Source: a virus. From it: 35,589 nt of DNA. How positions within the stretch are numbered: position 1 is the stretch's first letter; each line of letters starts with the position of its first letter. A program made the position numbers and the translations under genes. The stretch is from IMG/VR virus record IMGVR_UViG_3300017727_004944, positions 1 through 35,589 of that record. The stretch is one strand, 5' to 3'. This document shows positions 1,465-22,859 of this stretch, piece by piece. Under the pieces are notes generated by a model. It was not told the origin of the DNA. It saw nothing but the letters and a program-made list of their open reading frames with translations, and did no database searches.

Positions 1465-1486
1465 ATGTTTAATTTTGGTATGATTA

Positions 1487-2460: not shown

Positions 2461-2480
2461 TTTTTTTTTATTTATTTATT

Positions 2481-2975
2481 TTAATTTTCTCCTTTAAATA
2501 CCTCTATATAATCTAAAGCCTCCATAAAATCGTTATGAGGAAATCTTTTTTCTGTAGTCATATCCATTCTCCACTCATAAAACTCTCCTTTTTTGTTAGG
2601 AATAGGATATTTTTCTTTTTCTTCTTCTTTAATTTCTACGGCTTTTACAGCAGCCCATTCATAATTATCTTGTGAAGGGGTTTCATTTTCTACACCATAA
2701 TCTCTAGCTACTGCTGCAAACACCATACCTTGTTGTGGTAAATTAACTGTTTGAGGCATCCAAACCATTCCTTCATCATCTTCACCTAATAAAGCTTTAT
2801 ATAATTCTGGTAGTATTTCTATTTGTTCTTCAAAAAACTTTTCCCCCTGTTTCATTATGGATGAAGTTTGAAAACCACAACCATAACAAGAATATAATTC
2901 TACACCATTTACTTCATGCTTATAACAAGCATCTCCCCCACATCTATTACATTTTATTAATTTATCTTCTACCAT
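2481..2975 (-). CDS. Zinc-ribbon phage protein of unknown function
   Basis: This 164-residue protein starts with a four-cysteine zinc ribbon: CNRCG near residue 9 and CYGCG near residue 30. An acidic helical middle and a long region with few motifs follow. The C-terminus has an EWRMDMTTE segment that may bind a partner. It lies within one base of the GT4 gene upstream and 20 bases before the epimerase, so it is part of the glycosylation operon by position. I do not recognise a catalytic domain. Proteins with an N-terminal zinc ribbon of this kind are frequent in marine myoviruses, without an assigned role that I know of. Confidence 0.75.
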   Translation of the reverse strand: MVEDKLIKCNRCGGDACYKHEVNGVELYSCYGCGFQTSSIMKQGEKFFEEQIEILPELYKALLGEDDEGMVWMPQTVNLPQQGMVFAAVARDYGVENETPSQDNYEWAAVKAVEIKEEEKEKYPIPNKKGEFYEWRMDMTTEKRFPHNDFMEALDYIEVFKGEN

Positions 2976-2976
2976 T

Positions 2977-4275
2977 TTATACTTTTTTTAATTTTGATTT
3001 TTTAGGCATTTTAATTTTATCCATTCCCGGAAGTTTTAATTCCATCTTTTTAGGTAAAATTGGAAGGGATATATCAAATATTTCATTAATTTGATTACTC
3101 ATTGATTTATAACTAAATTTTGTTTTTGAAATTTTAGTTTGTCGTTTTGCTTTTGTAACCCAATCATTATAATTTTTAAAGGTATCCTCAAATAAATATT
3201 TTACATCACCTAAATTAGGTTTAAACCATTGTGCTTCTTTTAATAACATATTAGGAACTAATGATGAATTGTGGAGTTGTTCTAATTCACCCCCAATATA
3301 CCCAACATCCCCTTCATTTAAAAAATCTGTATGGCCAGACCAAGCTGTTGTAATAATAGGTTTATTAACTAAACTAAATTCTAGTAAAGGTCGACCAAAT
3401 CCTTCACCTCTAGTTAAACAAACCATGGTTTTTACTTTTGGATGGTTATATATTTCATTTACTTCAATGTTAGATAACTCACCATGTAATAAATAAATAG
3501 CAGGTAAATCATTAGATGGAATTGAATCTTTTATCATATCAATTCTTCTCATAATTTCAGATCTATCCATATGACTCCCACTTACAACTGCTGTTTTTAG
3601 AATTAATGCTGGTTTAATCTTTTTATCTTTAAAAATTTCATAAAATGTTTTTACTAATAAACCTACATTTTTCCTATCATGACCTAACTCTCCATGCATC
3701 CAGTGTCCTACAAATAAATAAGCATAATCTTCAGGAATGTCATTTATATTATTATATAAATCCTTATTTGAATATTCTTTAATAGGTTTATAAACATCTA
3801 AATTAGCTCCTTCAATTAATACTTTAACTGGTTTTTCTAATTTAATTACTTTTTCACCTTCATTATCTTTTGTAAATTCACAACTTTCAAATACTCTTTT
3901 AGAATGGTTAGATGAAGTTAATATTAAATCCATACGATTACATCCTTCAATCCAACTTCCATCACATATAGTGGTTTCAATTCCTGCTGTTAGTCCAATA
4001 TTATACTTACCTACAGCTTGGAATTCATTGGGAACTGTTATCTGACACCAATAATCAGGCTTTTCAGTTAATTGAGGGATAATATGTTTAGCTAAAAATC
4101 CCCACTTTTTTTCATTATCTTTAATAAAATTACGTTGAGTATTACCCCACCTTTGAGATAAGATTTTTACTTCATATCTATCTGATTCAATTATAGCCTT
4201 GACATAATCCCTAGCTCTGGCTCCATAACCACTATATGTGTCTATAGGACAACTTACAATAAATGTATTTTTCAT
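2977..4275 (-). CDS. GT4-like glycosyltransferase (GT-B fold)
   Basis: This 432-residue protein opens with TFIVSCPIDTYSGYGARARDY, where a Gly-rich loop follows beta-1 as in GT-B enzymes. In the C-terminal half, FVGHWMHGEL, an EVNEIYNHPKV segment and TRGEGFGRPLLEFSL give the E-x7-E donor-binding signature of GT4 retaining transferases. The last 25 residues are a Lys/Met/Pro-rich tail (KMPKKSKLKK) that could be an interaction tail. It directly follows a second GT4 gene with a one-base gap, so the two may act sequentially on one acceptor. The sugar and acceptor are unknown. Confidence 0.87.
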   Translation of the reverse strand: MKNTFIVSCPIDTYSGYGARARDYVKAIIESDRYEVKILSQRWGNTQRNFIKDNEKKWGFLAKHIIPQLTEKPDYWCQITVPNEFQAVGKYNIGLTAGIETTICDGSWIEGCNRMDLILTSSNHSKRVFESCEFTKDNEGEKVIKLEKPVKVLIEGANLDVYKPIKEYSNKDLYNNINDIPEDYAYLFVGHWMHGELGHDRKNVGLLVKTFYEIFKDKKIKPALILKTAVVSGSHMDRSEIMRRIDMIKDSIPSNDLPAIYLLHGELSNIEVNEIYNHPKVKTMVCLTRGEGFGRPLLEFSLVNKPIITTAWSGHTDFLNEGDVGYIGGELEQLHNSSLVPNMLLKEAQWFKPNLGDVKYLFEDTFKNYNDWVTKAKRQTKISKTKFSYKSMSNQINEIFDISLPILPKKMELKLPGMDKIKMPKKSKLKKV

Positions 4276-4276
4276 A

Positions 4277-5710
4277 TTAGTATACTAATTTATGATTTAA
4301 AACTTTGTTATTTTCATTTTTATCACTAGTAAATGTAAATTTTGGTCTTGGGGTAAATGTTTTAAATAATTCATCCATTCCCTCTACTACTCTACTAGAC
4401 ATTTTTTCAGATGTAAATCCTGCTTCTTTACCTAAAGCCCATTCCATCCCTTTTTTACCTATTCTTTTTCTTTCCTTATCCCCCATATCGTACATAGCTC
4501 TTATTTGTAAAGCAGCTTCTTCTGATGAACACCTATCATCATAAATGTATGGTGTTTTTGGGGAGCCTACTAATGATAAATTTGTTGGGAAAACTGGTAA
4601 AGCCCACTCACCACATTTTGTGTATGTTTTCTTATGATTAGAAGGAATATCTGAATTTGGTGTATACCATTTTCCTTTATTATCAACAAATCTCATTTGA
4701 TCTTGCATACCACCTGTTACATTAGCAATAATAGGAGTACCTGTAAGTAAAGATTCTGTTAATGATAACCCCCAACCTTCAGCTGAGGATAATAAAATAG
4801 TAGCATCTGCAACATTATATAAAAGAGACATTTGCTCAGTTGTTAATTTATTTGCTGAGATTCTAATATTATGATCTTTATTAGGAAATAAAAACTTAAT
4901 TACTGCTGGTAAATCAGTACCATGATCATCTATAGGATTCGTATGTAATACAAACTGACATTTACTTCTTTCTTCTTTAGGTAAACCATCTAAAAAATAT
5001 TTCCAAGCTAAAATTGTATCTGGGATTGATTTTCTTCTAATATTTCTAGAATTGAAAAATAAAGTAAATTTATCTTTATTCATACCCTGTGAAACATACT
5101 CATCAATTTTTTGTAAGTCTTTATTATCCTTATCTATAGGTTTAAAAATATTATGATTTAAACCATGAGGGATATATTTAATAACCTTAGATTTTCCATC
5201 TTCACCTAAAACCATCTCATTTATATTTTTGGTTTGTTTAGATATTCCAAATAAAGCATCACATGAGTTATAAAAGTCTTTATTATACATTGGAGCTGGT
5301 AAATCATCCCAAATATTTAAATATGCAATTGGAATTTCCTTTCGAATTTCATTTTCAATATTGAATAACCATTCAAAATATCTAGGATCTGTAATTAAGA
5401 ATAAGGCATCAATTTTTTCCCTTTTAATTACCTCTCTTAGTAGATCAGGATCACCATAACCATCACAAGGATATAATGTTACTTTAGAGTCATTAATCCC
5501 TATTATTTTATTAGTTGCTTCACTTAAATCTTGGATATTACCCTTATCTGGGTGTTTAATTGCTCCTGCTAATTGAGTCCAATTATATCTGTGAGAAGTA
5601 TTAGTTACTATTTCTCTACCTATTTGAGCAACTCCTGAATGTACTCTAATATCATCTGTTAATAGTAAGATATTTTTTCTATCTTTTTGTTTAATATAAC
5701 CTTCTTTCAT
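4277..5710 (-). CDS. GT4-like glycosyltransferase (GT-B fold)
   Basis: This 477-residue protein has an N-terminal Rossmann half starting ILLLTDDIRVHSGVAQIG. The C-terminal half carries FNSRNIRRKS (start of the donor domain), LLYNVADATILLSSAEGWGLSLTESLLTG (the E-x7-E signature) and ANVTGGMQDQ. These are the hallmarks of GT4 family retaining transferases. A DDLPAP segment lies in the interdomain region. It heads the glycosylation locus, 24 bases after a small ribbon-helix-helix gene. Two adjacent GT4 genes, an epimerase, a GT2 and a GT10-like gene suggest synthesis of a short branched glycan; what it decorates is not known. Confidence 0.87.
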   Translation of the reverse strand: MKEGYIKQKDRKNILLLTDDIRVHSGVAQIGREIVTNTSHRYNWTQLAGAIKHPDKGNIQDLSEATNKIIGINDSKVTLYPCDGYGDPDLLREVIKREKIDALFLITDPRYFEWLFNIENEIRKEIPIAYLNIWDDLPAPMYNKDFYNSCDALFGISKQTKNINEMVLGEDGKSKVIKYIPHGLNHNIFKPIDKDNKDLQKIDEYVSQGMNKDKFTLFFNSRNIRRKSIPDTILAWKYFLDGLPKEERSKCQFVLHTNPIDDHGTDLPAVIKFLFPNKDHNIRISANKLTTEQMSLLYNVADATILLSSAEGWGLSLTESLLTGTPIIANVTGGMQDQMRFVDNKGKWYTPNSDIPSNHKKTYTKCGEWALPVFPTNLSLVGSPKTPYIYDDRCSSEEAALQIRAMYDMGDKERKRIGKKGMEWALGKEAGFTSEKMSSRVVEGMDELFKTFTPRPKFTFTSDKNENNKVLNHKLVY

Positions 5711-9538: not shown

Positions 9539-11170
9539 TTACATTCCCATTTGCATCATTTGTGATGGATCCATTTGTGGTTGTTGTTTTTCTTCTGTAG
9601 GTTCATTTACTACTATACATTCTGTAAGTAATACTGTTCCTGCTACCGCTGCTGCATTTTCAAGTGCTACTCTTGTTACTTTAGTAGGATCAATAATTCC
9701 TGCTTCTTTCATATTAACAATTTCACCTTTTTTAAGATCATATCCAGCCCATGTATCATTACCTGAATCCACTAATTGGTATTTACCTAACATCTGAGCT
9801 CCAACTGAATCATGTCCAGCATTTATAAGTATTTGTTCAAATGGTTTACCACATGATTTATAAACAATTTCTGATCCAACATCACATTGATCAATAGACT
9901 CTCTAGCATATAAAAGTGCTGCTCCACCCCCAGGTACAATACCTTCTTCAATTGCTGCTTTTGTAGCATGCAAAGCATCATCTACTCTATCTTTCTTTTC
10001 ATTCATTTCAATTTCAGTAAACCCACCTACATGAATGATAGAAACACCACCTGCAATTCTTGCTAATCTGGTCTGTAGTTGTTCTTTTTCAAAATCACTA
10101 TCAGCTGCTTCAATTTGAGATTGAAGTTCTTCAATTCTTTGATTAATAGCATCTTCATTACCCTTACCATCAATAATAGTTGTTTTTTCTTTTGTGATAG
10201 TAGCTGTTCGTGCTTCACCAAACCAATCAAATTGGAATTTATCCCATTTATGGCCTTTTTCTTTTGAAAAAACCGTTCCACCAGTCATAATAGCAATATC
10301 TTCTAAAATAAGCTTTCTTCTATCTCCAAAATCTGGGGCTTTAACTGCACATGCTTTAATAGTTCCTCTACCTTTATTTACAATAAGAGTAGCTAAAGCT
10401 TCATTATCAATATCCTCAGCAATAATAAGTAATGATTTATTATTTGAAGCACAATTTTCTAATAAAGGGAGTAAATCTTTTACTGCTGTTAATTTTTGAT
10501 CAACAATAAGAATTTGAACGTCTTCTAAAGTACTAGTCATTGTGTTGTTATTAGTAACAAAGAAATGAGATTTATATCCTCTCTCAAATTGAATACCTTC
10601 AACTGTTTCAAGATAAGTATCTCCTGATTTGCTTTCTTCAATATGTACTATACCTTCATGTCCTACTTTTTGCATTGCTGTTGCAATTAATTTTCCTACT
10701 TCAGGATCATTATTTGCTGATATAGTAGCTACTTGCTCTAATTGTTCTTCAGATGAAATATCTTCTGCTATATTTTCTCTTAAACTTTTAGTAACAGTTT
10801 TTACTGCATTATCAATACTTCTTTTAATTTCAACCGCATTAGCTCCATTAGCTAAATGTTTAAGACCATCTTTAATCATCTCTCTAGCCAATAGAGTAGA
10901 TGTAGTAGTACCATCACCATCTTTATCAGCTGTTTTTACAGATGCTTCTCGTACTAAATTTACACCTAAATTTTCAATAGGATCTTTAACAGAAATATGT
11001 TTAGCTACTGTTACACCATCTTTAGTTGACTGTGCTTGATTATGTTCTTTCTCAATAACAACATTTCTACCATTAGGTCCTAACGTTGACACTACAGCAT
11101 CTGCTAATGTATCAATTCCCTTTACTAATTTATCTCTCCCTTCTGGGCCAAACTCTATAATTTTACTCAT
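9539..11170 (-). CDS. groEL: GroEL-type chaperonin (Cpn60)
   Basis: This full-length 543-residue type I chaperonin shows STLGPNGRNVVI near residue 28, the ATP-site loop KDGDGTTTSTLLA near 82, the apical-domain stretch VEGIQFERGY, and DALHATKAAIEEGIVPGGGAALLYA in the second equatorial segment, which carries the ATP-hydrolysis aspartate. The C-terminal tail is Met/Gln-rich (QQPQMDPSQMMQMGM) instead of a long GGM repeat. The equatorial signatures look intact, so it should form an active ring. It overlaps the groES stop by eight bases. Whole GroEL genes are uncommon in phages; this copy probably folds phage replication or capsid proteins, or substitutes for the host system. Confidence 0.96.
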   Translation of the reverse strand: MSKIIEFGPEGRDKLVKGIDTLADAVVSTLGPNGRNVVIEKEHNQAQSTKDGVTVAKHISVKDPIENLGVNLVREASVKTADKDGDGTTTSTLLAREMIKDGLKHLANGANAVEIKRSIDNAVKTVTKSLRENIAEDISSEEQLEQVATISANNDPEVGKLIATAMQKVGHEGIVHIEESKSGDTYLETVEGIQFERGYKSHFFVTNNNTMTSTLEDVQILIVDQKLTAVKDLLPLLENCASNNKSLLIIAEDIDNEALATLIVNKGRGTIKACAVKAPDFGDRRKLILEDIAIMTGGTVFSKEKGHKWDKFQFDWFGEARTATITKEKTTIIDGKGNEDAINQRIEELQSQIEAADSDFEKEQLQTRLARIAGGVSIIHVGGFTEIEMNEKKDRVDDALHATKAAIEEGIVPGGGAALLYARESIDQCDVGSEIVYKSCGKPFEQILINAGHDSVGAQMLGKYQLVDSGNDTWAGYDLKKGEIVNMKEAGIIDPTKVTRVALENAAAVAGTVLLTECIVVNEPTEEKQQPQMDPSQMMQMGM

Positions 11171-11543
11171 TGTCTTCTAATTTTATATCATTAATTGCTT
11201 TTTCTTCTTCTTTAGTAACTTCAGTTTCTGATAGAATATCTTCAACATCAACTACTTTTTTAACTTTGGCTAAAATTTGATTTTCAGGTCCTACATAAAA
11301 TTCCTCTCCATTATGTTCTAATTTAGTAAAACCTTGTGTAGGTAATACAACAATATCTCCTACTTTACTTATAGTAGGAATAAATGTTCCTGATATTGTA
11401 TGTTGACCTGGTCCTACTGCTATAATTTCTCCATGTTCATTTTTGTCTTTACCAATATCAGGTACGACAATTGATCCATATGTTTCCTCTTCTACTTCTA
11501 GAGGTTTTACGATAACTGCATTAAATAGTGCTTCTAATTTCAT
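11163..11543 (-). CDS. groES: GroES-type co-chaperonin (Cpn10) with an acidic C-terminal extension
   Basis: This 126-residue protein has the Cpn10 layout: FNAVIVKPLE (first strand), the mobile loop with EEETYGSIVVPDIG, whose IVV tripeptide would bind GroEL, HGEIIAVGPG, the KVGDIVVLPTQG roof-strand segment, and an ILAKVK end. A further 25 to 30 residues rich in Glu and Asp follow the canonical end, making it longer than the usual 95 or so residues. The extension may be phage-specific and its function is unknown. It is coupled to groEL by an eight-base overlap and to the 98-residue gene upstream by a four-base overlap. Confidence 0.92.
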   Translation of the reverse strand: MKLEALFNAVIVKPLEVEEETYGSIVVPDIGKDKNEHGEIIAVGPGQHTISGTFIPTISKVGDIVVLPTQGFTKLEHNGEEFYVGPENQILAKVKKVVDVEDILSETEVTKEEEKAINDIKLEDNE

Positions 11544-12432: not shown

Positions 12433-13167
12433 TTAAAAATCAGTTTCTGCTTTTCTTACCATAAAATATTCTGAAGAAATTGAATCTGTTTTAAATTTCA
12501 TTTCAATTAATCCCATTGTACTAATATTTAAAGTGCCTTCTTCCATGTCTTTATTAGCATGAAGAATTGTTTTAAAAGTATCTGAATTGAATGGAATTTT
12601 TAAATTTTGTTCTGTAATATCCCCCATTATTTGATAGGTGATTTTATTGTTATGTCCTGATTCATCACCAAAAATAAACTCACAAACATTTTCCCCATCT
12701 AAATTAGTTGTAGTTGTTACTAACATATTATCTACTTGAGATAATGCACTTTTAGCTTTAATTAGATTTTCAATATCTTCAGTTGTTAAGTTTAATTTAA
12801 CTACAAATTCAGGCATATTAACAGTACCTACTTTACCTATAAGTAGAGCATCTGATAAAGCATAAGTTAAATTAAAGTTTAAATCTGATATTTTTAATTT
12901 AGTAAATATTTTATTTGTTTTTTCTAGTTCTAAAAGTAAATCTCCATTACAAATACTAACTAAACTATTAAGTTTTTTAGTATCATAAATTGCCAATGTA
13001 CTATCTTCTAATTCAAATTCATTACAAGTAAGTTTACCTATAATATCTTTAGTAGGAGACATAAAGTCAATACTTAATGTGTTATCTTCTATAACCCATT
13101 TTACGGCTTCATTAACATTTAAATAATATTTGTTAATTACTGATTGTAGTTTTTGTTTATTTATCAT
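12433..13167 (-). CDS. Sliding clamp (T4 gp45-like processivity factor)
   Basis: This protein of about 244 residues has beta-alpha repeats typical of PCNA/gp45 clamps and occupies the gp45 position between the polymerase and clamp loader genes. Features include an acidic LSIDFMSPTKDIIGKLTC strand, a LLLELEKTNKIFTKLKISDLNF hairpin and an ending with IEMKFKTDS...YFMVRK. I start it at ATG 13167 because this makes an ATGA overlap with the stop of the polymerase C-terminal ORF; an ATG 15 codons upstream would overlap the polymerase by 49 bases. It would form a trimeric ring around DNA and tether the polymerase. Confidence 0.85.
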   Translation of the reverse strand: MINKQKLQSVINKYYLNVNEAVKWVIEDNTLSIDFMSPTKDIIGKLTCNEFELEDSTLAIYDTKKLNSLVSICNGDLLLELEKTNKIFTKLKISDLNFNLTYALSDALLIGKVGTVNMPEFVVKLNLTTEDIENLIKAKSALSQVDNMLVTTTTNLDGENVCEFIFGDESGHNNKITYQIMGDITEQNLKIPFNSDTFKTILHANKDMEEGTLNISTMGLIEMKFKTDSISSEYFMVRKAETDF

Positions 13168-14096
13168 ATGTTGAAAAACATTTGTTGGTAAGGATTTAGG
13201 TTTAATGTCCAACCCAGATCATTATAAAATCCCTCTAATTTATTTAATAATATTGATTCAAAAATTTTCTTTCTATCTGCATATTGCTCAATGAATATAC
13301 GAATTTTTTCAGGCAAATCCCACTCTAAAAAAGCAATCGCATCAATTTGATAAGGATTAGGTTTAAGGTAAATCCATTTAACTTTACTACCTTGTGTAAT
13401 ATAATTGTGTGTCTTATTTAATCCCCAAAATTTAAGCAAATCATTATAAATAATTGTTGCTTTAACAGCTGCAGGTGCTCCTTTACCTATAATTGAAAAC
13501 ATTTCTCCTGCTCTAGCTTTACGTTCTGTGTATTTATTTAACTTTTTAACAGATGTAGGATTTCCTAATTCTGTAAGAGAAATAGTTCCATCTAAAATTT
13601 GTGTTTTAAATAATTTTAATCTATTATCTATTTCACTTTGTTCCGCTCCTTTTAAAACATCAACTAAGGTTTTATGGAAAAATTTACCTAATACAGGTGG
13701 AAAATTTGCTTTTTTAAACTCAAGACCTTTAACATCAAGAGATTCCTTTACAATACCTTCTTGCTTTGTAATCCATTGAGCATAACGTCTTGTAGCTCTA
13801 AAATAAGCTGAACGAATAACACACTCAGTTTTCATTTCTAATCTATGTTTACCTTTAGCATTAAAGCAATTTGTGGCTAATGAGTCATAGGAATCAGTAA
13901 TAATATCCTGATATTTTAAAGCAATGTTTTCTAATTTATCATCTTTCTCTTCACTAGGCATAGTTTCAAATTCAGGATATAAATGCCTTAATAAAGGTTC
14001 AGCATGTATATAAATTGAATCTGTATCTGAATATGCTACATAATTTGTATCATCTGAATCACAAATCCACCATGGAGTATCTTCTAAATGTTTCAT
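13164..14096 (-). CDS. DNA polymerase family B, C-terminal part (palm motif C and thumb)
   Basis: This 310-residue ORF carries polymerase motif C, YSDTDSIY (residues 22-29), with the two catalytic aspartates at 24 and 26. KHRLEMKTE and RATRRYAQW follow, then KYTERKARAGEM and a thumb-like end. The last residues NPYQQMFFNI resemble a clamp-binding PIP-type tail. It overlaps the N-terminal ORF by ATGA and the clamp ORF by ATGA. It has no exonuclease or motif A/B and so cannot act alone. Both pieces together are about 870 residues, close to T4 gp43 (898). Confidence 0.9.
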   Translation of the reverse strand: MKHLEDTPWWICDSDDTNYVAYSDTDSIYIHAEPLLRHLYPEFETMPSEEKDDKLENIALKYQDIITDSYDSLATNCFNAKGKHRLEMKTECVIRSAYFRATRRYAQWITKQEGIVKESLDVKGLEFKKANFPPVLGKFFHKTLVDVLKGAEQSEIDNRLKLFKTQILDGTISLTELGNPTSVKKLNKYTERKARAGEMFSIIGKGAPAAVKATIIYNDLLKFWGLNKTHNYITQGSKVKWIYLKPNPYQIDAIAFLEWDLPEKIRIFIEQYADRKKIFESILLNKLEGFYNDLGWTLNLNPYQQMFFNI

Positions 14097-15775
14097 AATT
14101 CTAATCCTTCTTTTATAACTTTATTCATATGTCTATTGGCTGCTAATGCAGATTCTTGTATAATTCGCTGTCCACTAAGCGTTATAGACTCAGATAATAT
14201 AACATTCCCATAACGGAATGACCCTAAAGCAGTAGCACCATATAACGAATTAAGTAAAATCTTCATAGTATATTGTTTCATATGAAAAGCAGCACCTAAT
14301 TCTTTATTTCCATCTTTATATGCTTTTTTCATTTCGTTTTTATACTCAACTCTTTCATCAAACCATTTTTTTAAAATAGTAGATAATACTGACTCACGAT
14401 CTGTATTAAACATAACACCATTTGCTGAAATAGATAGATCGTTTTGTTCTACCATTGCAACAATTCTACCTATATTAACTTTTGTTCTATTTCTTTTTAA
14501 ATTTTCAACAATTAACTCTTCAGCATAATCTCTACATTTTAAATCATTTAAACCCAAACGATTATTTCTATCATCAGCATCTATAATTCTTCCAACCATA
14601 GTTTCCTTACCAATATTAATAGTCATAATAATTGAAGGGTATAGTGATGTTAAATCTTCATCAAAAACATAATTATAAATTCCTGCTTTAGGACAAAATA
14701 AATACCCACCAGCATAATTCTTTTTAGAAATTGGATTACGTTCCTTTGCAGGAGGGATAATACCTTTACTTAGTAGATAAGCCGAAATAGCTCCATCTTG
14801 TGTTTTAGTATTGGCATAAACCTCACTATAATTATGTTTACCTTTATGTGCTAGGTTTTTAGTTAATGCTAAGTAATCTAACTTTTCATCTAGTTTTTTT
14901 AATATCTCAACATCAACAAAATTATATTTAATAAATTTATGAATATCAGTTTCAAATAATTGATCAAGATTACCTTCATATTCTATTTTATTCATCCCTA
15001 CATATTTTTCTCCAATGGCATCTAACCTCATAGAAGGTTCATCTGCCCAACTGAATTTTTTATGTAGTCTCATGTAATCTAAAGATTCAACACCTGCTAT
15101 TTGAATATATTGGTCTTTAAACCAAGGTGTTTCTCTTACATAACCAATAGGAGATAAATGTCTTGCAAAATCTTCTCCTAATACATTACACATTCTATAA
15201 TATAAATAAGGGACATCAAAGTAATCACTATTCCATCCTACTATAATATCAGGATCCATTTCCCTAAATAATTCTAGAAATTTAGCTAGTAATTCTTCTT
15301 CTGTTTTACAAGGAATTATTTCTTTATTTCTTGCCTTAGTATGTTTTAATTGTCCTTTAGGATCTAAAATAACAATACCCCACAAATCTACTTGTTTATC
15401 ATACCAAGCTATTGATGTTACTTTTTTAGGTGCTGACTTAATATATTCTTCTGTAAGAGCATCACCCATTTCTGTTTCAATATCAAAAAATATTTCTCTA
15501 TGGGTCGAAGAGGGTTCATCATTAATTCCATATTTTTCAACTAGAAATTTTTGATAGGGGGGCATATCATGGAAATGAAGTTTTGGAGTATCATTTCTAT
15601 AGTTTTTAATTTTTTTAAGGGGTTCACCATTTAGTCCCGTAAATTGGGCATCAGCTTCATGACATTCAATATAAGCTTGATTATCCCATTCTACTTTAGA
15701 ATAACCCTGATCTTCCCATAAATGTATTAAAAACTTATTATCTTTAAGACGTCTTGCAAATGCCTTTTTATACAT
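14093..15775 (-). CDS. DNA polymerase family B, N-terminal part (3'-5' exonuclease, palm motifs A and B)
   Basis: This 560-residue ORF has exonuclease motifs FFDIETE (Asp98, Glu100), WNSDYFDVPY (Asp187) and YNFVDVEIL (Tyr284, Asp288). Palm motif A is DLTSLYPSI (Asp374) and fingers motif B is KILLNSLYG (Lys504, Asn508). The frame ends right after the helix that precedes motif C, and the missing catalytic piece starts four bases upstream of this stop as a separate ORF. All catalytic residues of a gp43-type enzyme are therefore present across two chains. No intein or intron sequence lies at the break. It replicates the phage genome with the clamp and helicase encoded nearby. Confidence 0.95.
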   Translation of the reverse strand: MYKKAFARRLKDNKFLIHLWEDQGYSKVEWDNQAYIECHEADAQFTGLNGEPLKKIKNYRNDTPKLHFHDMPPYQKFLVEKYGINDEPSSTHREIFFDIETEMGDALTEEYIKSAPKKVTSIAWYDKQVDLWGIVILDPKGQLKHTKARNKEIIPCKTEEELLAKFLELFREMDPDIIVGWNSDYFDVPYLYYRMCNVLGEDFARHLSPIGYVRETPWFKDQYIQIAGVESLDYMRLHKKFSWADEPSMRLDAIGEKYVGMNKIEYEGNLDQLFETDIHKFIKYNFVDVEILKKLDEKLDYLALTKNLAHKGKHNYSEVYANTKTQDGAISAYLLSKGIIPPAKERNPISKKNYAGGYLFCPKAGIYNYVFDEDLTSLYPSIIMTINIGKETMVGRIIDADDRNNRLGLNDLKCRDYAEELIVENLKRNRTKVNIGRIVAMVEQNDLSISANGVMFNTDRESVLSTILKKWFDERVEYKNEMKKAYKDGNKELGAAFHMKQYTMKILLNSLYGATALGSFRYGNVILSESITLSGQRIIQESALAANRHMNKVIKEGLEL

Positions 15776-16265
15776 TCTTTAATTCTTCTTTAGTAAAAAA
15801 TTGTTTTAGATCTGGTCTATAATATTTAACATTTTTCATTACTTTCCTATCTCGTGTTCTATAGACAATATAATAATCGCCAACTTTTTCATAGTGACAC
15901 GGTTCCTTTTGTTCAATTGATCTTTTTTCCACTGTCGCTTGTGCATCCTCTTCGCTTGAACAAGCCTTTGACATATTCGACCCTTGTACTTCTTGATACG
16001 CTGGCCATATCTTATCCTTAAGACCATGTAACATAGTTCCGTTACCCAATGAAACATAGGCAATGTCACATAAAGCATCAAGAATCTCAACAATATCTCC
16101 TGTTTCACAGGCATGTTTATATTCTTCAAGTTCTTCAAGGATGAAATCATAAACAAACTGCCATTCTTTTTTTTCTGGAATTGTTGGTTCATAATTATTA
16201 GGTTTACCCATAGTGGAATTAAATTCCTCTACTTCATTTACAAATGGTACATTACTTTTACTCAT
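15768..16265 (-). CDS. MazG/PRA-PH-like nucleotide pyrophosphohydrolase
   Basis: In this 165-residue protein, FILEELEEYKHACETGDIVEILDALCDIAYVSLG shows the E-x2-E and E-x2-D metal-binding pattern of all-alpha NTP pyrophosphatases (MazG, HisE, dUTPase-type). The C-terminal third is a beta-rich extension (GDYYIVYRTRDRKVMKNV) not needed for that fold. It hydrolyses NTPs to NMP and PPi in relatives; the preferred nucleotide is not deducible. It overlaps the polymerase start by eight bases and follows folE, fitting a role in adjusting nucleotide pools for replication or base modification. Confidence 0.82.
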   Translation of the reverse strand: MSKSNVPFVNEVEEFNSTMGKPNNYEPTIPEKKEWQFVYDFILEELEEYKHACETGDIVEILDALCDIAYVSLGNGTMLHGLKDKIWPAYQEVQGSNMSKACSSEEDAQATVEKRSIEQKEPCHYEKVGDYYIVYRTRDRKVMKNVKYYRPDLKQFFTKEELKNV

Positions 16266-16277
16266 AACTATTATTAT

Positions 16278-16976
16278 TTAAATATTATGTCCTCCGTTAT
16301 TAATCTTCAGACTGTCAAAAAATTCTTTTCTTGCTAAATTATCATTTTCTCTAAATACCCCAGATGCTTTGGTTGTTACCATAGCTGCTCCTTGATGTTT
16401 AACACCTCTACAACTAACACAGTTATGTGTGCCTACAATAGTAACAATTACACCTTTATTACCTTCAGTAATTTTATCTACAGCATTATGGATAGCTGAT
16501 GTTAATTGTTCTTGAATAGCTCCCCTACGACCAAATAATTCAACGATTCTATTTAATTTAGATAAACCAATTACTTGACCTTCATCTCCTGCAATATAAC
16601 CAATATGAACTACTCCCCCAATTGTTTGGTGATGATGTGAACACATTGAGGTAAGTGGAATATTTCTTTCAATAACAATACCATCATAACCATCAGATGG
16701 GAATGATGTTATAGGAGACATTGCAGTATATCTACCTGCCCATAAATCATTTACATATGCTTTAGCTACACGTCTTGGGGTTTCCATTGAGTTTGGATCA
16801 TTTCTCCAATCACATTTTAAAGCATCTAAAAACTGACCGTATGCTTCTTCAGCTTGGTCTATCATTTTATCTTTTTCTTGTTGTTTTAAAGGGAATCCTG
16901 GTGCTACACCATTAGCAAAACCTTCTTGTACAACTTCTAATTCTTCGTGAATTTTTCTTCGTTTGTTTTCTGCCAT
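16278..16976 (-). CDS. folE: GTP cyclohydrolase I
   Basis: This 232-residue protein has zinc ligands at Cys112 and His115 in MCSHHH and at Cys186 in HNCVSCRGV, plus IGLSKLNRIVELFGRR, LTSAIHNAV and HQGAAMVTTKASGVF, all standard FolE segments. It converts GTP to dihydroneopterin triphosphate, the first step toward both folate and 7-deazaguanines. With QueD, QueE and QueC encoded just upstream, the 7-deazaguanine route is the likely purpose. It has its own promoter (16998-17026) with a 21-base A/T-rich leader. The N-terminal 35 residues are a charged extension. Confidence 0.95.
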   Translation of the reverse strand: MAENKRRKIHEELEVVQEGFANGVAPGFPLKQQEKDKMIDQAEEAYGQFLDALKCDWRNDPNSMETPRRVAKAYVNDLWAGRYTAMSPITSFPSDGYDGIVIERNIPLTSMCSHHHQTIGGVVHIGYIAGDEGQVIGLSKLNRIVELFGRRGAIQEQLTSAIHNAVDKITEGNKGVIVTIVGTHNCVSCRGVKHQGAAMVTTKASGVFRENDNLARKEFFDSLKINNGGHNI

Positions 16977-16997
16977 TTTTAATTTTTTATATAATAT

Positions 16998-17026
16998 AAT
17001 ATACGAATAATTTGGTGAAATTCCAA
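16998..17026 (-). promoter_or_regulatory. Promoter TTGG-N19-TATATT for folE
   Basis: On the minus strand TTTGG ends at 17023 and TATATT lies at 17003-16998, 19 bases apart, with TTCG immediately before the -7 box. It lies in the gap between the phosphoribosyltransferase stop and the folE start. Confidence 0.77.
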
Positions 17027-17027
17027 A

Positions 17028-17459
17028 CTATAGTTTATAATCTTGAATTGCTTCTGCATCATTTCTCTCCCAAGGATAAATAATCCAATTATTACTACTC
17101 CATTGATTAGCAAATAAAGTAGGTTCAAAAACTGATGTATGAGGTTTATAATGTAAACATGCTGTTTTTAAATTAAAAGGAAATGCAAATTCGTCTTGAT
17201 AAGTTTTGTAAAAATTTGATAATGTAACACCACTATCACATATATCATCTATAATTAATGTATCAGGAGTTATTGTGCCTTTAGTCATTGGGATTCCTAA
17301 TTTATGTGAAACCATAACAGCAGGAATTAATCCACCTCTAGGTAACCCCCAAATATCTTTAATTTCTAACTTTGAAATTAATATTTTATCACATAACTTT
17401 TTTACTAAAACCTCTACATCATCCCAACTAAGAAATGATTTATTTTCTGTTTTTACCAT
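17028..17459 (-). CDS. Purine-type phosphoribosyltransferase (xanthine/hypoxanthine-like)
   Basis: This 143-residue protein has the type I phosphoribosyltransferase fold. The PRPP-binding motif is TLIIDDICDSGVTL (residues 67-80), with two acidic residues followed by the phosphate loop. WGLPRGGLIPAVMV (37-50) matches the early PPi-loop region of xanthine-guanine phosphoribosyltransferases. The hood sequence HYKPHTSVFEP resembles the xanthine type. It would make a purine nucleotide from a base and PRPP. Position within the queC-folE cluster raises the possibility that it handles a 7-deazaguanine base, but purine salvage is the simpler reading. Confidence 0.82.
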   Translation of the reverse strand: MVKTENKSFLSWDDVEVLVKKLCDKILISKLEIKDIWGLPRGGLIPAVMVSHKLGIPMTKGTITPDTLIIDDICDSGVTLSNFYKTYQDEFAFPFNLKTACLHYKPHTSVFEPTLFANQWSSNNWIIYPWERNDAEAIQDYKL

Positions 17460-17465
17460 AAATTC

Positions 17466-17804
17466 TTATCTTTTACCTCCATTATACTCTACAGCATGTC
17501 CTTCAGTTATTAATTGTTTATTTACATTTACTTCATTAACAAATATAATTCCTAAACATCTACCATATTTACCAACACCTTGGGATTCTAAGATAAATGA
17601 TCCTTTTTCTAGTAATTCTTCTAATCTAATTTTAGCAGCAATCCCTCTTGCTTTTTCTTCTAAATCTCTAGTTCTTGATTCTGGAGCGTTCATTCCTACC
17701 ATTCTAATTCTTACTTTTTTCCAAGTATTAAATCCTAAATCTACAAGGGCATCAACAGTATCTCCATCAACAACTCTATCTAATTTTGCATTGTATTTAT
17801 ACAT
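17466..17804 (-). CDS. Staphylococcal nuclease-like (SNase/TNase) endonuclease
   Basis: This 112-residue protein is a minimal SNase OB-fold domain. VVDGDTVDALVDLGF (residues 11-25) holds the Ca-binding aspartates, VRIRMVGMNAPESR holds Arg32/34 and Glu42, and GKYGRCLG holds Arg82. The catalytic set (Asp, Arg, Glu, Arg) is therefore present. I see no signal peptide, so it acts in the cytoplasm. It could degrade host DNA or RNA while modified phage DNA is spared; this is inference from its place among the 7-deazaguanine genes. It overlaps the preceding 44-residue gene by eight bases. Confidence 0.88.
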   Translation of the reverse strand: MYKYNAKLDRVVDGDTVDALVDLGFNTWKKVRIRMVGMNAPESRTRDLEEKARGIAAKIRLEELLEKGSFILESQGVGKYGRCLGIIFVNEVNVNKQLITEGHAVEYNGGKR

Positions 17805-17931
17805 TTTCTATATATTTTTTTAATTTATCTATTAATACTAATACTTCATCAGGTTCCATTGTTATAGCACAACATACATTTATATTTTCTGTTATTTCTT
17901 CTAATACTTCTAATGCCTCTTGTTTATTCAT
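17797..17931 (-). CDS. Small acidic hypothetical protein (44 aa)
   Basis: A short frame links queE and the nuclease gene. Its ATG (17931-17929) shares one base with the queE stop and its TAA overlaps the nuclease start by eight bases. The product is helical and acidic (EALEVLEEITENI, then CCAITMEPDEVLVLIDKLKK) with a paired Cys-Cys. Exact tiling between two real genes makes it likely to be translated. The function is unknown. Confidence 0.6.
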   Translation of the reverse strand: MNKQEALEVLEEITENINVCCAITMEPDEVLVLIDKLKKYIENV

Positions 17932-18716
17932 TAGACCTCTCTTTTGTCTTCAAAAGCTATAATATGTGGTCTCCAAGTCATCCTATAACCATTATCCCTA
18001 ACCCAATCAAATAATACAGGATAAGATTTAAATAATGCTTCTCTAGAATCCCCAGCAGGCATAAACCAAACTTTTTCTGGTTTGACTTCTAATTGAGTTA
18101 TGCAATCCATAATTTCAGCCAATGCATCTTGATCTTTACCATCCCACACAGGTTTAATATGAAAATCAGAATGATAAGCTATTGATTGTTTAATTGCATC
18201 GTAATTAAGCCTAAGCCTATTATGTGTTTTAATCATTTTTTCATCTGTTTCTTTTCCTTGAGGAGTTAAAACTCCTAACTGTGGAACAGAATTAGAAAAC
18301 TTAGGACTAATAGATAACAAATTAATAGGATAATCTGTGGGGAGAAAATGAGATCCCTCAGTTTCAATAGTAATAAATATATCATTTTCATGTGCAAAGT
18401 GTGTTAATTCATTTACTAGAGCTGGATGCATAGTAGGCGAACCCCCTGTTAACATCATCTCTTTTATATGAGGATTATTTTTGTACATTGCAATAATGTC
18501 CTTAAAGTTAAAATGTCCTTTTTCAGGATGAATACTGGTATACCAAGAGTCACACCATCCACCTTCGCCAAAATAGCATCGATGGGTGCAACCTGTTGTT
18601 CTAATAACTACTGTAGGATAACCAGCTCTAGATCCTTCTGATTGAACTGCTGTGTAAATTTCTACGATAGGGAGATTCTTATCGTAATCTTCGATTCTTT
18701 TCAATTGTTTATGCAT
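17931..18716 (-). CDS. queE: QueE-like radical SAM enzyme (7-carboxy-7-deazaguanine synthase)
   Basis: This 261-residue protein has an opening EIYTAVQSEGSRAGYPTVVIRTTGC with the QueE substrate-contact QxEG. Cluster cysteines are Cys43, Cys47 and Cys55. The spacing is C-x3-C-x7-C rather than C-x3-C-x2-C, because FGEGG is inserted before WCDS. MLTGGSPTMHP is the SAM GGE-like motif, and ISPKFSN follows. It would convert 6-carboxytetrahydropterin to 7-carboxy-7-deazaguanine. It lies downstream of queD and overlaps a 44-residue gene by one base. The fold is clear; activity with the altered cysteine spacing is inferred. Confidence 0.88.
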   Translation of the reverse strand: MHKQLKRIEDYDKNLPIVEIYTAVQSEGSRAGYPTVVIRTTGCTHRCYFGEGGWCDSWYTSIHPEKGHFNFKDIIAMYKNNPHIKEMMLTGGSPTMHPALVNELTHFAHENDIFITIETEGSHFLPTDYPINLLSISPKFSNSVPQLGVLTPQGKETDEKMIKTHNRLRLNYDAIKQSIAYHSDFHIKPVWDGKDQDALAEIMDCITQLEVKPEKVWFMPAGDSREALFKSYPVLFDWVRDNGYRMTWRPHIIAFEDKREV

Positions 18717-18758
18717 TCGTTAATTTTTTTAAGTGGTTTTTCATTCACTGTTGTACTT

Positions 18759-19223
18759 TTATTCGCTGTAATATGCAGCATTTTTACCATGTTCCATAAA
18801 TTTAACTTTAGTAACTCTAACTCTATTATTAGTTTCAGTTTTAACAAATTCATTTATGTTACTATAAATATATTCAGCAAATTTTTCTGCACCAGTAGCT
18901 GGAATTATTCTTACTTGGGCTACTCCTGCTTTATCCATTTGTTTAAAGGCTTCTATTTCAGGATCATCTTCAGCTATAACCATAGTATGATCAAACATAT
19001 AATCCATCCATGCTTTTGGTTGTAACCCATCAATTCTAGTTTTAGCACGTTTCATTCCACCAAAGTCCCAAACCCAATTTCTATCATCTAATTCACCTTC
19101 AAAATATATTTTAAATGATATACCATAACCATGAACAAACCTACAATGTGTATCTTTTGCTTTCCATTGACGGAATACTGTTGAAAATCCATCAAATACT
19201 TTACTTGATTGAAATTTACCCAT
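18759..19223 (-). CDS. queD: QueD-like 6-carboxy-5,6,7,8-tetrahydropterin synthase
   Basis: In this 154-residue protein of the 6-pyruvoyl-tetrahydropterin synthase fold, FSTVFRQWKAKDTHCRFVHGYGISFKIYFEG contains the catalytic Cys27 and His31. The usual HGH is HGY here, a variant I associate with a longer QueD group. NWVWDFGGMKRAK is the DFG segment and FDHTMVIAEDDP is the acid/base region. It turns dihydroneopterin triphosphate into 6-carboxytetrahydropterin. The start overlaps the stop of the thioredoxin-like gene by eight bases, and it is followed by queE after a 42-base A/T-rich gap. Confidence 0.9.
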   Translation of the reverse strand: MGKFQSSKVFDGFSTVFRQWKAKDTHCRFVHGYGISFKIYFEGELDDRNWVWDFGGMKRAKTRIDGLQPKAWMDYMFDHTMVIAEDDPEIEAFKQMDKAGVAQVRIIPATGAEKFAEYIYSNINEFVKTETNNRVRVTKVKFMEHGKNAAYYSE

Positions 19224-19539
19224 TATAGTTATTTGTATTAAAGTTTATAATATCATCTAATATTTTAGTAACACCCTCTAAAGATATAGTACTCATTTGA
19301 TTTCCACCTACATAAAGATGTGTTTTAGTACCTGAGGTATCTGTAAATATAATAGAAGGTACTTCTTTTGCCCCCATTTTATGAGTATAATCTGCTTCAT
19401 ATTCAGTATTAACTTTTCTTGTTGGGACTACTCTAGCTACTTGATGCATAACACCATCAACAATTTTTCCTAGAGGTTCATTTTCCATTGCTGGATTTGT
19501 AAAATAATGTATTGCTACATCTTTATTTGCATATTTCAT
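19216..19539 (-). CDS. Thioredoxin-fold-like protein lacking CxxC
   Basis: This 107-residue protein starts with AIHYFTNPAMEN, placing NPAM where a redox CxxC would be expected. KMGAKEVPSIIFTDTSGTKTHLYVGG carries the cis-proline loop and final strands of a thioredoxin fold. With no active-site cysteines it cannot act as a disulfide reductase. It lies directly after an intact thioredoxin gene (four-base gap) and overlaps queD. It could be a scaffold or partner for a neighbour. The fold call is by pattern and moderately secure. Confidence 0.6.
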   Translation of the reverse strand: MKYANKDVAIHYFTNPAMENEPLGKIVDGVMHQVARVVPTRKVNTEYEADYTHKMGAKEVPSIIFTDTSGTKTHLYVGGNQMSTISLEGVTKILDDIINFNTNNYNG

Positions 19540-19543
19540 ATTA

Positions 19544-19792
19544 TTAATTTAAAAGGTTTTTAATTTCATTAGAAGATCTAGATCCACTTACTTTATTTAT
19601 TTCAATACCATTTTCATCAAGCACAACCATAGTAGGAATACTTCTAATTGAATATTGAGCTGATAAATCTGGGTTAGAATCTACATCTATTTTAGTAATA
19701 GGGAATCCTTCTGCTACTAAATTATTTATAGTTGGTGCTAATTGTTTACAAGGCCCACACCATGCAGCCGAAAAATATAAGATTTTTTTCAT
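19544..19792 (-). CDS. Thioredoxin
   Basis: This compact 82-residue thioredoxin has active site WCGPC at residues 11-15, the KIDVDSNP strand, and the cis-proline loop SIRSIPTMVVL. It is shorter than E. coli thioredoxin (about 108) because the N-terminal helix and strand are missing, as in several phage thioredoxins. The likely job is to reduce the ribonucleotide reductase encoded at 31-34 kb, whose NrdA ends with a CxxC-type tail. It may also serve neighbours in this block. Confidence 0.93.
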   Translation of the reverse strand: MKKILYFSAAWCGPCKQLAPTINNLVAEGFPITKIDVDSNPDLSAQYSIRSIPTMVVLDENGIEINKVSGSRSSNEIKNLLN

Positions 19793-19808
19793 TTTTATTT
19801 ATTATTAA

Positions 19809-19982
19809 TTAAACTAATTCTTCAATTATACCTATTACTTCACTCAATATAAGTAAAGCAGTTGCAGCAACCAAATTAAAAGGAATAAAGAAATATCCTG
19901 CAATTCTTACACCAGATTTAAAAAAACTTATTTGTTGGTGAAGTTTTGGATCTGGGATTTTTTCTAATTTATTCTTGTTCAT
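19809..19982 (-). CDS. Small membrane protein (57 aa)
   Basis: This frame (ATG 19982, TAA 19809) overlaps the queC stop by 14 bases. A polar Lys-rich N-terminus is followed by one or two hydrophobic stretches (RIAGYFFIPFNLVAATALLILSEVIGII) and a short acidic end. Tiling and clear membrane character support it as a real gene. The function is unknown; its position between queC and thioredoxin does not point to one. Confidence 0.6.
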   Translation of the reverse strand: MNKNKLEKIPDPKLHQQISFFKSGVRIAGYFFIPFNLVAATALLILSEVIGIIEELV

Positions 19983-20796
19983 ACGCTATTAATACTTGTT
20001 CAACATAAGATTTTGCTATTTCATAATCAACAGGACCAGTTTCATCAGCATATTGTACCGGGTCTGGTCTTCCTAATTTAATAAATGCCTCTACTCTTTC
20101 GACCGAAGATGCTGATTTATAATCAGACCACCCTTCAGGAGTTGGTTTATATGAAGTATTGGTTCTAGCATAAACTTCATCAAAATCAATACCTAATTTA
20201 TCACATAATATCTCCCCGTCTTGAAGAATAGTAAATTTATCACCTTTAAGATATGGGGTATAATATCCTACTCTATCAGCCTCCCAATTACCTTCTCTAA
20301 ATGCCTTATCATCTGCATCTCTAAATTCTTGTCGACAGTCAGGATAAATGTCATGATCGCCGGCATGTATTCCTAAGGCAATTGAAGTTGGTTCTTTTGT
20401 TCGATTTGCTACAGATAAAGCAACTGCTTGAGATATTGAAGCAAATATTTTATTTCTATTAGGTACTACCGTAGCTTTCATATTTTCAGCTGCATAATGT
20501 CCTTCTGGAACTTCATCTCCTCCTTCAACTAAGGCTGAGTCTAATAATTTTACTAATCCATCTAATTTAATTACTTCATAAGTTACATCATGACCATTTC
20601 TTTTTAAATAATCTACTAATGCTCTTGCTCTTTTAAGTTCAACTCTATGTTTTTGACCGTAATCAAAAGATAAAGCTGTTACTGTTTCAAATTTATCAAG
20701 ACATTTAAGCAATAATGTACTTGAATCCATACCACCTGAAAGTGATACTACTGCGTGTTTTGGTTTTTCAAAACCAGGAATTTCTAATTGTGTCAT
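19969..20796 (-). CDS. queC: QueC-like 7-cyano-7-deazaguanine synthase without the zinc cysteines
   Basis: This 275-residue PP-loop enzyme has SGGMDSS at residues 20-26, FDYGQKHRVEL, NRNKIFASISQAVA and GDHDIYPDCRQEF, all QueC signatures. QueC normally ends with a Cys4 zinc site (pattern C...CGxCxxC). Here the corresponding region (about 211-238, TNTSYKP to KSASSVER) has Ser215, Ser228, Ser230 and Ser231 or other residues, and no cysteines. The rest of the protein is full length. It would convert 7-carboxy-7-deazaguanine to preQ0 via the amide. The lost zinc site may change stability or stop the reaction at the amide. No copy of the consensus promoter lies just upstream of it. Confidence 0.87.
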   Translation of the reverse strand: MTQLEIPGFEKPKHAVVSLSGGMDSSTLLLKCLDKFETVTALSFDYGQKHRVELKRARALVDYLKRNGHDVTYEVIKLDGLVKLLDSALVEGGDEVPEGHYAAENMKATVVPNRNKIFASISQAVALSVANRTKEPTSIALGIHAGDHDIYPDCRQEFRDADDKAFREGNWEADRVGYYTPYLKGDKFTILQDGEILCDKLGIDFDEVYARTNTSYKPTPEGWSDYKSASSVERVEAFIKLGRPDPVQYADETGPVDYEIAKSYVEQVLIAYEQE

Positions 20797-20844
20797 TTTA
20801 TTTATTTTATATTTGCCAGGTATTGTACGTATAGGCTAACGTTG

Positions 20845-21636
20845 TTATAAATTATTTACTTTTCTAAACATTTTTAAATTATAATCCAAAAGATCAAAAT
20901 CAACTTGATCATTTAACATATAGAAAAAATCATTCATGTTTGCTTTTGGTTTTTTATACAGACCATAACCTTTATATTGTATATCTTCTAAGGTAGCCAT
21001 TACTGGATTTGATGTATCAATTGATTCTATACAATTAATATCTTTATACCAACCAAATTCTTGGGGGACAGCACATCCTAATAAATGAATTCTATCATCT
21101 TGTTTAATATCACCCATCTTCATTAAAGCTGATATTACATATAGTCTACCTAATGCTTTTCCTAAATCTTTATTTGGATGAGGACAAACATCATTATAAT
21201 AAGAAGCTCCATATGAAAAACAAATTTTACCATATCCTAAGTCTTTATATGCTTTAGCACATTCAGAGGCTTCATGTATAGTTTTAGCTTGTACTACTGC
21301 TACCTTTTCTACTTCTTTTGGAAAGTCATAAATATTCCAAATAGTAGCATTTATTATAGATTCTTCTGCATTTTCCCAAACATCAGGAACTATAAATTCA
21401 TTAGGTTTTAATTCATTAATCCAATATATAAGACGTGAACTATCATAAGCTTCTCCTAATTCATGAAGTGAATTATCCATTATAATATAACGTCCTGCTG
21501 CTTTTGCCTTTCTAAAATATTCTAAATATTTAGGCTCCTCATCTAATAAATGGGGAAGACAATAATCATAATCATTAAATTTTAAACTATCGTCTAGTAG
21601 ACACATTGGTGTCTCGTGACTTATTTTTATTGCCAT
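20845..21636 (-). CDS. TGT-like transglycosylase, candidate DpdA-type DNA 7-deazaguanine transferase
   Basis: This 263-residue protein contains KISHETPMCLLDDS near the start, GRYIIMDNSLHELG, an IVPDVWENAEES strand with a candidate catalytic Asp, VAVVQAKT, KICFSYG, and HLLGCAVPQEFGWY...ESIDTSNP. This TIM-barrel order is one I associate with the tRNA-guanine transglycosylase superfamily members of large phages that exchange guanine in DNA. The zinc site of tRNA TGTs is not evident and the protein is shorter than bacterial TGT (about 370). Together with FolE, QueD, QueE and QueC it completes a pathway to 7-deazaguanine DNA. tRNA as target cannot be excluded. A consensus promoter sits 20 bases upstream. 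Confidence 0.72.
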   Translation of the reverse strand: MAIKISHETPMCLLDDSLKFNDYDYCLPHLLDEEPKYLEYFRKAKAAGRYIIMDNSLHELGEAYDSSRLIYWINELKPNEFIVPDVWENAEESIINATIWNIYDFPKEVEKVAVVQAKTIHEASECAKAYKDLGYGKICFSYGASYYNDVCPHPNKDLGKALGRLYVISALMKMGDIKQDDRIHLLGCAVPQEFGWYKDINCIESIDTSNPVMATLEDIQYKGYGLYKKPKANMNDFFYMLNDQVDFDLLDYNLKMFRKVNNL

Positions 21637-21766: not shown

Positions 21767-21963
21767 TAGTCTTCTTCTACAAATTCTACGTCACCATAAT
21801 CATCAATTGGTTTATCTCTTACTAGATCCCAATCAGCATCATCTATAATATCTTGTTGAATATCTTCATCACCTGTTTTCCACTTTACTAATTCTTCTTC
21901 TGTTAACACATATTCTTCCCATCTGAAGTTTGCGTAATTTACTGTTCTTGTTAATTTAGCCAT
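21766..21963 (-). CDS. Small acidic hypothetical protein (65 aa)
   Basis: This very acidic 65-residue protein has an N-terminal aromatic-rich strand (NYANFRWEEYVLTEEEL). A long run of Asp and Glu follows from about residue 32 (DEDIQQDIIDDADWDL and a VEFVEED end). It could mimic nucleic acid or bind basic partners, but that is speculation from composition. Its start overlaps the uvsE stop by one base and its stop overlaps the next ATG by one base, so all three are probably translated from one message. Confidence 0.7.
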   Translation of the reverse strand: MAKLTRTVNYANFRWEEYVLTEEELVKWKTGDEDIQQDIIDDADWDLVRDKPIDDYGDVEFVEED

Positions 21964-22859
21964 TATATTACTCTTTTAAAAATTGCTTGTTCTTTTAATT
22001 TTGCCTCAATTACAATATCTGGTTCAAGACCATATGTTTGTATCTTTTCATAAATAATATCAGAGTGAGCTTGAGGACGAATTGACTCATCTAATTTTTC
22101 TTTTCTACGACTTTCTGAGTAGTGACAACATTGAGCAATTCCTTCAGGCCATGTAATTGCAGCCATTTTTAATGCTTCTTCTTCAGTCAAACCACCAGTG
22201 TTAAACTTATGATGAAAATAATCAAATGTAATTGGAATCCCAATTGTTTGGTAAATACCATCAAATAAATCTTTTACTGAGTATTCGTTTGGGCTGTCAT
22301 CATTTTCAATAACGAGACGTTTTTTAGTATCATCATTAAGCAACTCAAAATTCTTACAAAAACGCTCTAATGTTCCTTTTTTATCACCATAAGCACCCCC
22401 TACATGAATATTAATTTTATTATAATTTGATGGTTTAAAACCAAGCATATTAAACTGCTCACTATGGCAATTTAATTCACGAATGGTTTTTTCAACAACT
22501 TTTTGATTAGGAGATGCTAAACAGTTATAAGGACCAGGATGCATAGTAAGACGTTGATTTGCATCTGTTGCAATCTTTCCTATTTCTAACATCATACTAC
22601 AAATTTCATCATAATCCTTTAAATCGGATAATTTGTATTCATCTGACCAAGCAAATATTTGGGATGAAAGACGGAATAATTTTATTCCCATCTCATTATT
22701 CCACTGGACAATTGTTTTAAGATCTTTAACATTAAGTAATGCAAGATCAGAGACATAATCAATACCTTTAGCATCAAATGTTTTTCGACGCATTGTTCGA
22801 TTTGTCATAATTTTATTTGCACTGAGTGCTGTGTTGATACACGCGTAACCTAGATTCAT
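21963..22859 (-). CDS. uvsE: UV-damage endonuclease UvsE/UVDE
   Basis: This 298-residue TIM-barrel protein has an opening NLGYACINTAL, FRLSSQIFAW, RLTMHPGPYN, NIHVGGAYGDK, RLVIENDD, PITFDYFHHKFN and AHSDII in the order of UVDE enzymes. These segments supply the His/Glu/Asp ligands for the metal cluster. It nicks DNA 5' of UV photoproducts, a useful repair function in sunlit water. It is transcribed from the promoter at 22879-22908 with a short A/T-rich leader. The family assignment is clear; activity is inferred from conserved ligands. Confidence 0.93.
   Translation of the reverse strand: MNLGYACINTALSANKIMTNRTMRRKTFDAKGIDYVSDLALLNVKDLKTIVQWNNEMGIKLFRLSSQIFAWSDEYKLSDLKDYDEICSMMLEIGKIATDANQRLTMHPGPYNCLASPNQKVVEKTIRELNCHSEQFNMLGFKPSNYNKINIHVGGAYGDKKGTLERFCKNFELLNDDTKKRLVIENDDSPNEYSVKDLFDGIYQTIGIPITFDYFHHKFNTGGLTEEEALKMAAITWPEGIAQCCHYSESRRKEKLDESIRPQAHSDIIYEKIQTYGLEPDIVIEAKLKEQAIFKRVI

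Follow-up and report, generated by a model that had tools for sequence, protein, structure and literature searches.

A phage operon predicted to place 7-deazaguanine in DNA combines a QueC lacking its zinc motif with a separate sub-clade of DpdA-like transglycosylase

A 35.6-kb viral fragment record with the gene content of a large lytic phage (IMG/VR record IMGVR_UViG_3300017727_004944, positions 1 to 35,589, here called the window) encodes, in one operon, FolE, QueD, QueE and QueC together with a protein resembling DpdA, the phage DNA guanine transglycosylase. Judging from sequence comparison, we put the probability that these genes work together as a pathway for replacing guanine in the DNA of the phage at about 85%. 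FolE, QueD and QueE would convert GTP to 7-carboxy-7-deazaguanine, which QueC would amidate to 7-amido-7-deazaguanine (ADG) and then dehydrate to the nitrile, 7-cyano-7-deazaguanine (preQ0). After replication, a 263-residue protein of tRNA-guanine transglycosylase (TGT) fold would swap guanine in DNA for a 7-deazaguanine base, and the likely product is DNA with 7-cyano- or 7-amido-7-deazaguanine in place of some or all guanine. Pathways of this kind are already known, as a means by which phages escape restriction enzymes; what is new is the zinc-less QueC and the sub-clade of transglycosylase that accompanies it.

The content and conserved order of the locus emerged from comparison with related loci. 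An earlier note, made from the letters of the window, had delimited a near-complete 7-deazaguanine pathway. Its limits were exact, with the FolE open reading frame (ORF) ending at 16278 and the TGT-like ORF, on the minus strand like that of FolE, starting at 21636, and the presence of FolE, QueD, QueE and QueC was upheld by family matches far above chance (Pfam and PHROG E-values, Table 1). Nearly all long family-matching ORFs of the region lie on the minus strand. Transcription from 21636 to 16278 would pass through the genes for the TGT-like protein, QueC, thioredoxin, a thioredoxin-like protein, QueD, QueE, an SNase-like nuclease, a phosphoribosyltransferase and FolE, beyond which a MazG-like protein and then a DNA polymerase are encoded in the same direction. 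QueC lay no more than 3.5 kb downstream of the transglycosylase gene in 85 of the 93 IMG/VR loci with enough sequence, a count in which some loci from the two scans share a contig, and QueD and QueE were also downstream of the transglycosylase in most loci.

The TGT-like ORF matched no Pfam TGT or NCBIfam family, PF01702 found nothing across the window, and sequence searches of the PDB gave no credible TGT match (E 1.2 to a DNA-guanine transglycosylase in one of them). The fold predicted for its product is nonetheless supported by a structural model and by identity to an annotated DNA guanine transglycosylase. The AlphaFold model, built from 25 sequences, had a predicted local distance difference test score (pLDDT) of 92.4, and all 50 matches listed by Foldseek against the PDB were tRNA-guanine transglycosylases (best E 7.4e-8). 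The protein of Flavobacterium phage vB_FspM_immuto (immuto), annotated DpdA / DNA guanine transglycosylase, is 39.7% identical to the window protein over its full length. By tblastn, relatives were present in 22 isolate phage records, chiefly immuto and Campylobacter phages, the matches in the latter being annotated as hypothetical proteins, and IMG/VR held 70 loci with relatives at 54-100% identity. Fletchervirus NCTC12673 was in the searched phage collection and was not among the transglycosylase matches. This agrees with the DNA chemistry of the two groups, firehammerviruses being reported to carry the ADG deoxynucleoside (dADG) and fletcherviruses deoxyinosine. Cui and colleagues (2023) are said to have named the firehammervirus transglycosylase DpdA3, with full replacement of guanine. 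Campylobacter phages with the pathway and without a then-known DpdA had already been found to be highly dADG-modified (Hutinet et al. 2019, PMC6884629).

The TGT fold is common to tRNA enzymes, and Hutinet et al. raised precursor boosting for pathway phages that lack DpdA (PMC6884629). It is therefore conceivable that the genes boost the queuosine precursor for host tRNA and that the TGT-like protein targets tRNA, not DNA, and we regard this as very unlikely. The protein has 263 residues against about 375 for Escherichia coli TGT and escapes the Pfam TGT profile, relatives of it are encoded by phages whose DNA contains 7-deazaguanine, and other queuosine-tRNA enzymes, QueA- and QueG-like genes included, found no match among the scanned ORFs. 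We infer action on DNA rather than on tRNA.

Among the transglycosylase residues invariant from the window through the firehammervirus CP220 are D54, D85, Q116, H184 (H184-LLG) and D207 (D207-TSNP). D54 and D207 sit at strand ends in the order expected of the TGT aspartates. The invariant residues come after successive barrel strands and may correspond to the TGT aspartates and guanine-binding residues. In a tree of 55 sequences the window protein belongs to a large clade, with CP220, immuto and the locus L161 grouped apart from it (support 100/100 for those three), although its placing is unsure because the branches are long. Phylogenetically, the window transglycosylase belongs to a new sub-clade, related to the firehammervirus/immuto DpdA type but separate from it.

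Several points weigh against a DNA-modification pathway. When its profile was compared with an alignment of three TGT/DpdA sequences, the transglycosylase yielded no match and hence no residue-level correspondence to TGT. Since the window sub-clade is separate from CP220 and immuto, their specificity may not extend to it. Furthermore, metal ligands have been lost in both QueC and QueD, as described below, so the product may have changed.

Comparison with known systems shows what is shared and what is not. Firehammerviruses (CP220, CP21, CPt10) encode counterparts of FolE, QueD and QueC as well as a transglycosylase related over its full length at about 36% identity (over 98% of the protein in CP220), and CP220, like the window, has no QueF or GATase_6 match. 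The CP220 pathway genes are scattered whereas those of the window form one operon, the transglycosylases fall in separate sub-clades, and the CP220 QueC keeps the zinc cysteines that the window QueC lacks. Immuto is closer in its biosynthetic genes, with QueC, QueD and QueE 66-83% identical to, or closely like, those of the window and a DpdA at 40%. It shares with the window a zinc-less QueC, a QueD of HGY type and a FolE with an adjoining phosphoribosyltransferase gene; unlike the window, it adds QueF, a formyltransferase-like gene and a kinase gene next to DpdA. In Escherichia phage CAjan and Mycobacterium phage Rosebush, the minimal set FolE-QueD-QueE-QueC-DpdA yields the preQ0 deoxynucleoside (dPreQ0), with about 30% of G replaced (PMC6884629). 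These phages have the same minimal set as the window and no QueF or amidotransferase, but their DpdA is of a different type, and their relatives SeppeHuegi and Hedgerow have a canonical zinc QueC, unlike the window.

Canonical QueC (PF06508 cluster 1) is characterised by the motifs SGGxDS, YxQxHxxE, VPxRN and YPDC and by a zinc motif, C(x)8CxxCxxC, treated as its hallmark, and Y35, R99, Y131 and Y189 are essential in the E. coli enzyme (PMC13329287). The window QueC keeps all four catalytic motifs and the counterparts of the essential residues, with Y216 aligning to Y189; only the zinc motif is gone. In its place, residues 212-234 read TNTSYKP...SDYKSASSVER, which has no counterpart of the four cysteines and fits the motif TxTSY...D[YFH]KS. 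Among the distinct sequences of the clade (139 full-length members), SGGxDS, YxQxHxxE and VPxRN were each present in 89/89 and [YF]PDC in 87/89, and CxxCxxC was found in 0/89. The fold is kept in the structural model (mean pLDDT 85.5; means of ten-residue blocks 81-94 over the former zinc region), for which Foldseek returned QueC structures first and then Cap9. The four cysteines are kept in the QueC of E. coli, CP220, Hedgerow (Rosebush group), SeppeHuegi, Dp-1, phiSM, HVTV-1 and two Vibrio phages; among the named QueC proteins compared, their loss is common only to the window and immuto. No description of a zinc-less QueC was found in the literature covered, which took in PMC13329287 and other sources in part. 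Several other loci (L137-L140, L153-L155, L162 and others) have a zinc-less QueC and no DpdA of the window type in the stretch covered.

Cysteines were kept in 78 of the best 80 bacterial and archaeal QueC relatives. The two exceptions, 57% identical to the window protein, are in Thiotrichales bacterium 19S9-11 and a gammaproteobacterial metagenome-assembled genome (L181 6592-8795; L182 65-1761). Both genomes also carry QueF, and in both the zinc-less form is the sole QueC, aside from weak matches of longer proteins. In the gammaproteobacterial genome, QueF directly adjoins the zinc-less gene, and lgt and thyA follow. QueF needs the nitrile as its substrate. That the zinc-less enzyme is the only QueC beside QueF in these two genomes is the strongest indication that it still makes preQ0, which it probably does. 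Among the phages and loci compared, QueF was found only in immuto, L125, L131, L161 and L172, in each case together with a zinc-less QueC.

These genomes bear on a different explanation, in which a zinc-less QueC stops at the amide and the loss of zinc alone sets ADG as the product. The zinc cysteines are gone in every QueC of the clade, and ADG is a known intermediate of the enzyme (PMC13329287). We think it improbable. Co-occurrence with the nitrile-requiring QueF, in the five phages or loci and as the sole QueC in the two bacterial genomes, weakens the idea of an ADG-only enzyme; the CP220 QueC keeps its four cysteines although dADG has been reported in the DNA of firehammerviruses; and the counterpart of the essential E. 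coli Y189 is retained in the window.

QueD is altered too. H31 of its zinc histidine triad is kept, and the other two positions are F and Y (FRQ...HGY). The catalytic Cys, Asp-His and Glu are kept as C27, D78, H79 and E113, invariant in the alignment. The FRQ...HGY form also occurs in immuto, phiSM and the Thiotrichales genome, which carries the same QueD and QueE variants as the window. We considered and rejected the variant as a phage invention, given this bacterial occurrence and plasmid relatives annotated 6-carboxytetrahydropterin synthase. In QueE, the cluster cysteines C43, C47 and C55 are invariant, and the loop between the second and third is longer than in E. coli (CX3CX7C). FolE C112, H115 and C186, which we take to be zinc ligands, show no variation among 42 distinct sequences.

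Profile scans of its ORFs bore out the earlier note that the window lacks QueF, the preQ0 reductase. That absence by itself is weak because the record is a 35.6-kb fragment, and it is supported by three near-complete close relatives, each about 164 kb long; QueF, Gat and ArcS were found neither in these nor in the window. Among records of the same groups spanning about 52-178 kb, none gave a GATase_6 or ArcS domain, and QueF occurred only in immuto. Weak QueF matches in two records (G009, G010) were FolE genes by their coordinates. As QueF, GATase_6 and ArcS were not found in the relatives, we credit the window clade with what appears to be the minimal dPreQ0-type set, joined to a transglycosylase related to that of dADG phages. 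In the absence of QueF and an amidotransferase from these genes, preQ0 or its amide ADG is the expected base. A final base of preQ1, G+ or some other form, produced by late enzymes whose genes lie outside the fragment, is unlikely. Such enzymes could lie beyond the window, which is part of a larger genome, and the relatives immuto and L161 have both QueF and a formyltransferase-like gene; the close relatives of about 164 kb have no QueF, GATase_6 or ArcS that we could find.

Thus, comparative evidence supports the earlier proposal of phage 7-deazaguanine DNA modification, which had left the final base open. Within a guanine-replacement pathway acting on DNA, the amide has a little under an even chance of being the base in DNA, the nitrile is only slightly less likely, and any other form has a small chance. 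Much of the guanine could be replaced, in line with reports on the firehammervirus relatives. What comparison shows is the gene content, its conserved order, the TGT fold and the intact catalytic motifs of QueC; that the target is DNA, which base results, how far it replaces guanine and that it protects the phage are inferences from these.

A guanine/xanthine-type phosphoribosyltransferase gene adjoins FolE in 18 of 53 loci, and in immuto too. DpdA exchange must free guanine, and therefore this enzyme could recycle guanine to GTP and hence to the pathway in some members, a tentative idea. It is a minor one, because the gene is missing from the close relatives of about 164 kb; it is absent from CP220 as well, which rules out an obligatory partner. 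In Brevundimonas phage StAshley, a phosphoribosyltransferase lies beside FolE, and the annotation, in the parts covered, lists neither a queuosine gene nor a DpdA gene.

Table 1. Features of the putative 7-deazaguanine operon and its neighbours in the window
Feature	Position	Strand	Evidence
Candidate DpdA-like DNA guanine transglycosylase of TGT fold, 263 aa	20845..21636	-	tblastn, AlphaFold model, Foldseek, invariant residues
QueC without zinc motif, 275 aa	19969..20796	-	PF06508 3.5e-37; model; Foldseek QueC
Thioredoxin, accessory	19544..19792	-	PF00085 7.4e-19; place between QueC and QueD conserved
Thioredoxin-like protein, accessory	19216..19539	-	NCBIfam thioredoxin 0.00061 (below cut-off); conserved position
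QueD-like 6-carboxytetrahydropterin synthase, FRQ...HGY variant	18759..19223	-	PF01242 1.1e-13; phrog_2389 2.1e-40
QueE-like radical SAM 7-carboxy-7-deazaguanine synthase	17931..18716	-	phrog_2076 9.1e-54
SNase-like nuclease, neighbour	17466..17804	-	PF00565 1.6e-11
Guanine/xanthine-type phosphoribosyltransferase	17028..17459	-	phrog_8995 1.9e-14; NF006613 1.4e-12
FolE, GTP cyclohydrolase I	16278..16976	-	PF01227 1.9e-42; phrog_2197 2.5e-58
MazG-like nucleotide pyrophosphohydrolase, neighbour	15768..16265	-	phrog_671 3e-27

The SNase-like nuclease is probably outside the pathway. A gene for the UV-endonuclease UvdE (21963-22859, minus strand) lies just upstream of the transglycosylase, a position it holds only in the closest relatives. 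Elsewhere the record has genes of the kind carried by large lytic phages, encoding a clamp loader, a sliding clamp, GroEL/GroES, ribonucleotide reductase, a DnaB-like helicase and an endolysin. The phage GroEL and GroES genes span 9539-11543 (minus strand), and immuto has both too, near its pathway genes. The family B DNA polymerase (13164-15775, minus strand) is encoded in two ORFs of 560 and 310 residues with a 4-base overlap; an N-terminal ORF of 559-592 residues is kept in eight related records, and more distant records have a single ORF of 862-929 residues. A single cluster at 841-5710 (minus strand) holds three glycosyltransferase-like genes together with one for a nucleotide-sugar epimerase/dehydratase. 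No tRNA genes were found in the window.

It is possible, though we hold it only tentatively, that a large clade of uncultured aquatic phages swaps most or all of its guanine for preQ0 or ADG through a new DpdA sub-clade and a QueC and QueD without their zinc sites, with a phosphoribosyltransferase returning guanine to GTP in some. The operon ties many metagenomic phages to 7-deazaguanine DNA, their transglycosylase being one that escapes Pfam and is mostly unnamed in databases. Because the zinc motif is published as the canonical QueC hallmark (PMC13329287), a QueC that lacks it yet keeps the catalytic motifs allows a direct test of what zinc does in this enzyme. Modified DNA would shield the phage genome from restriction, and these phages would withstand many restriction enzymes should most of their guanine be replaced.

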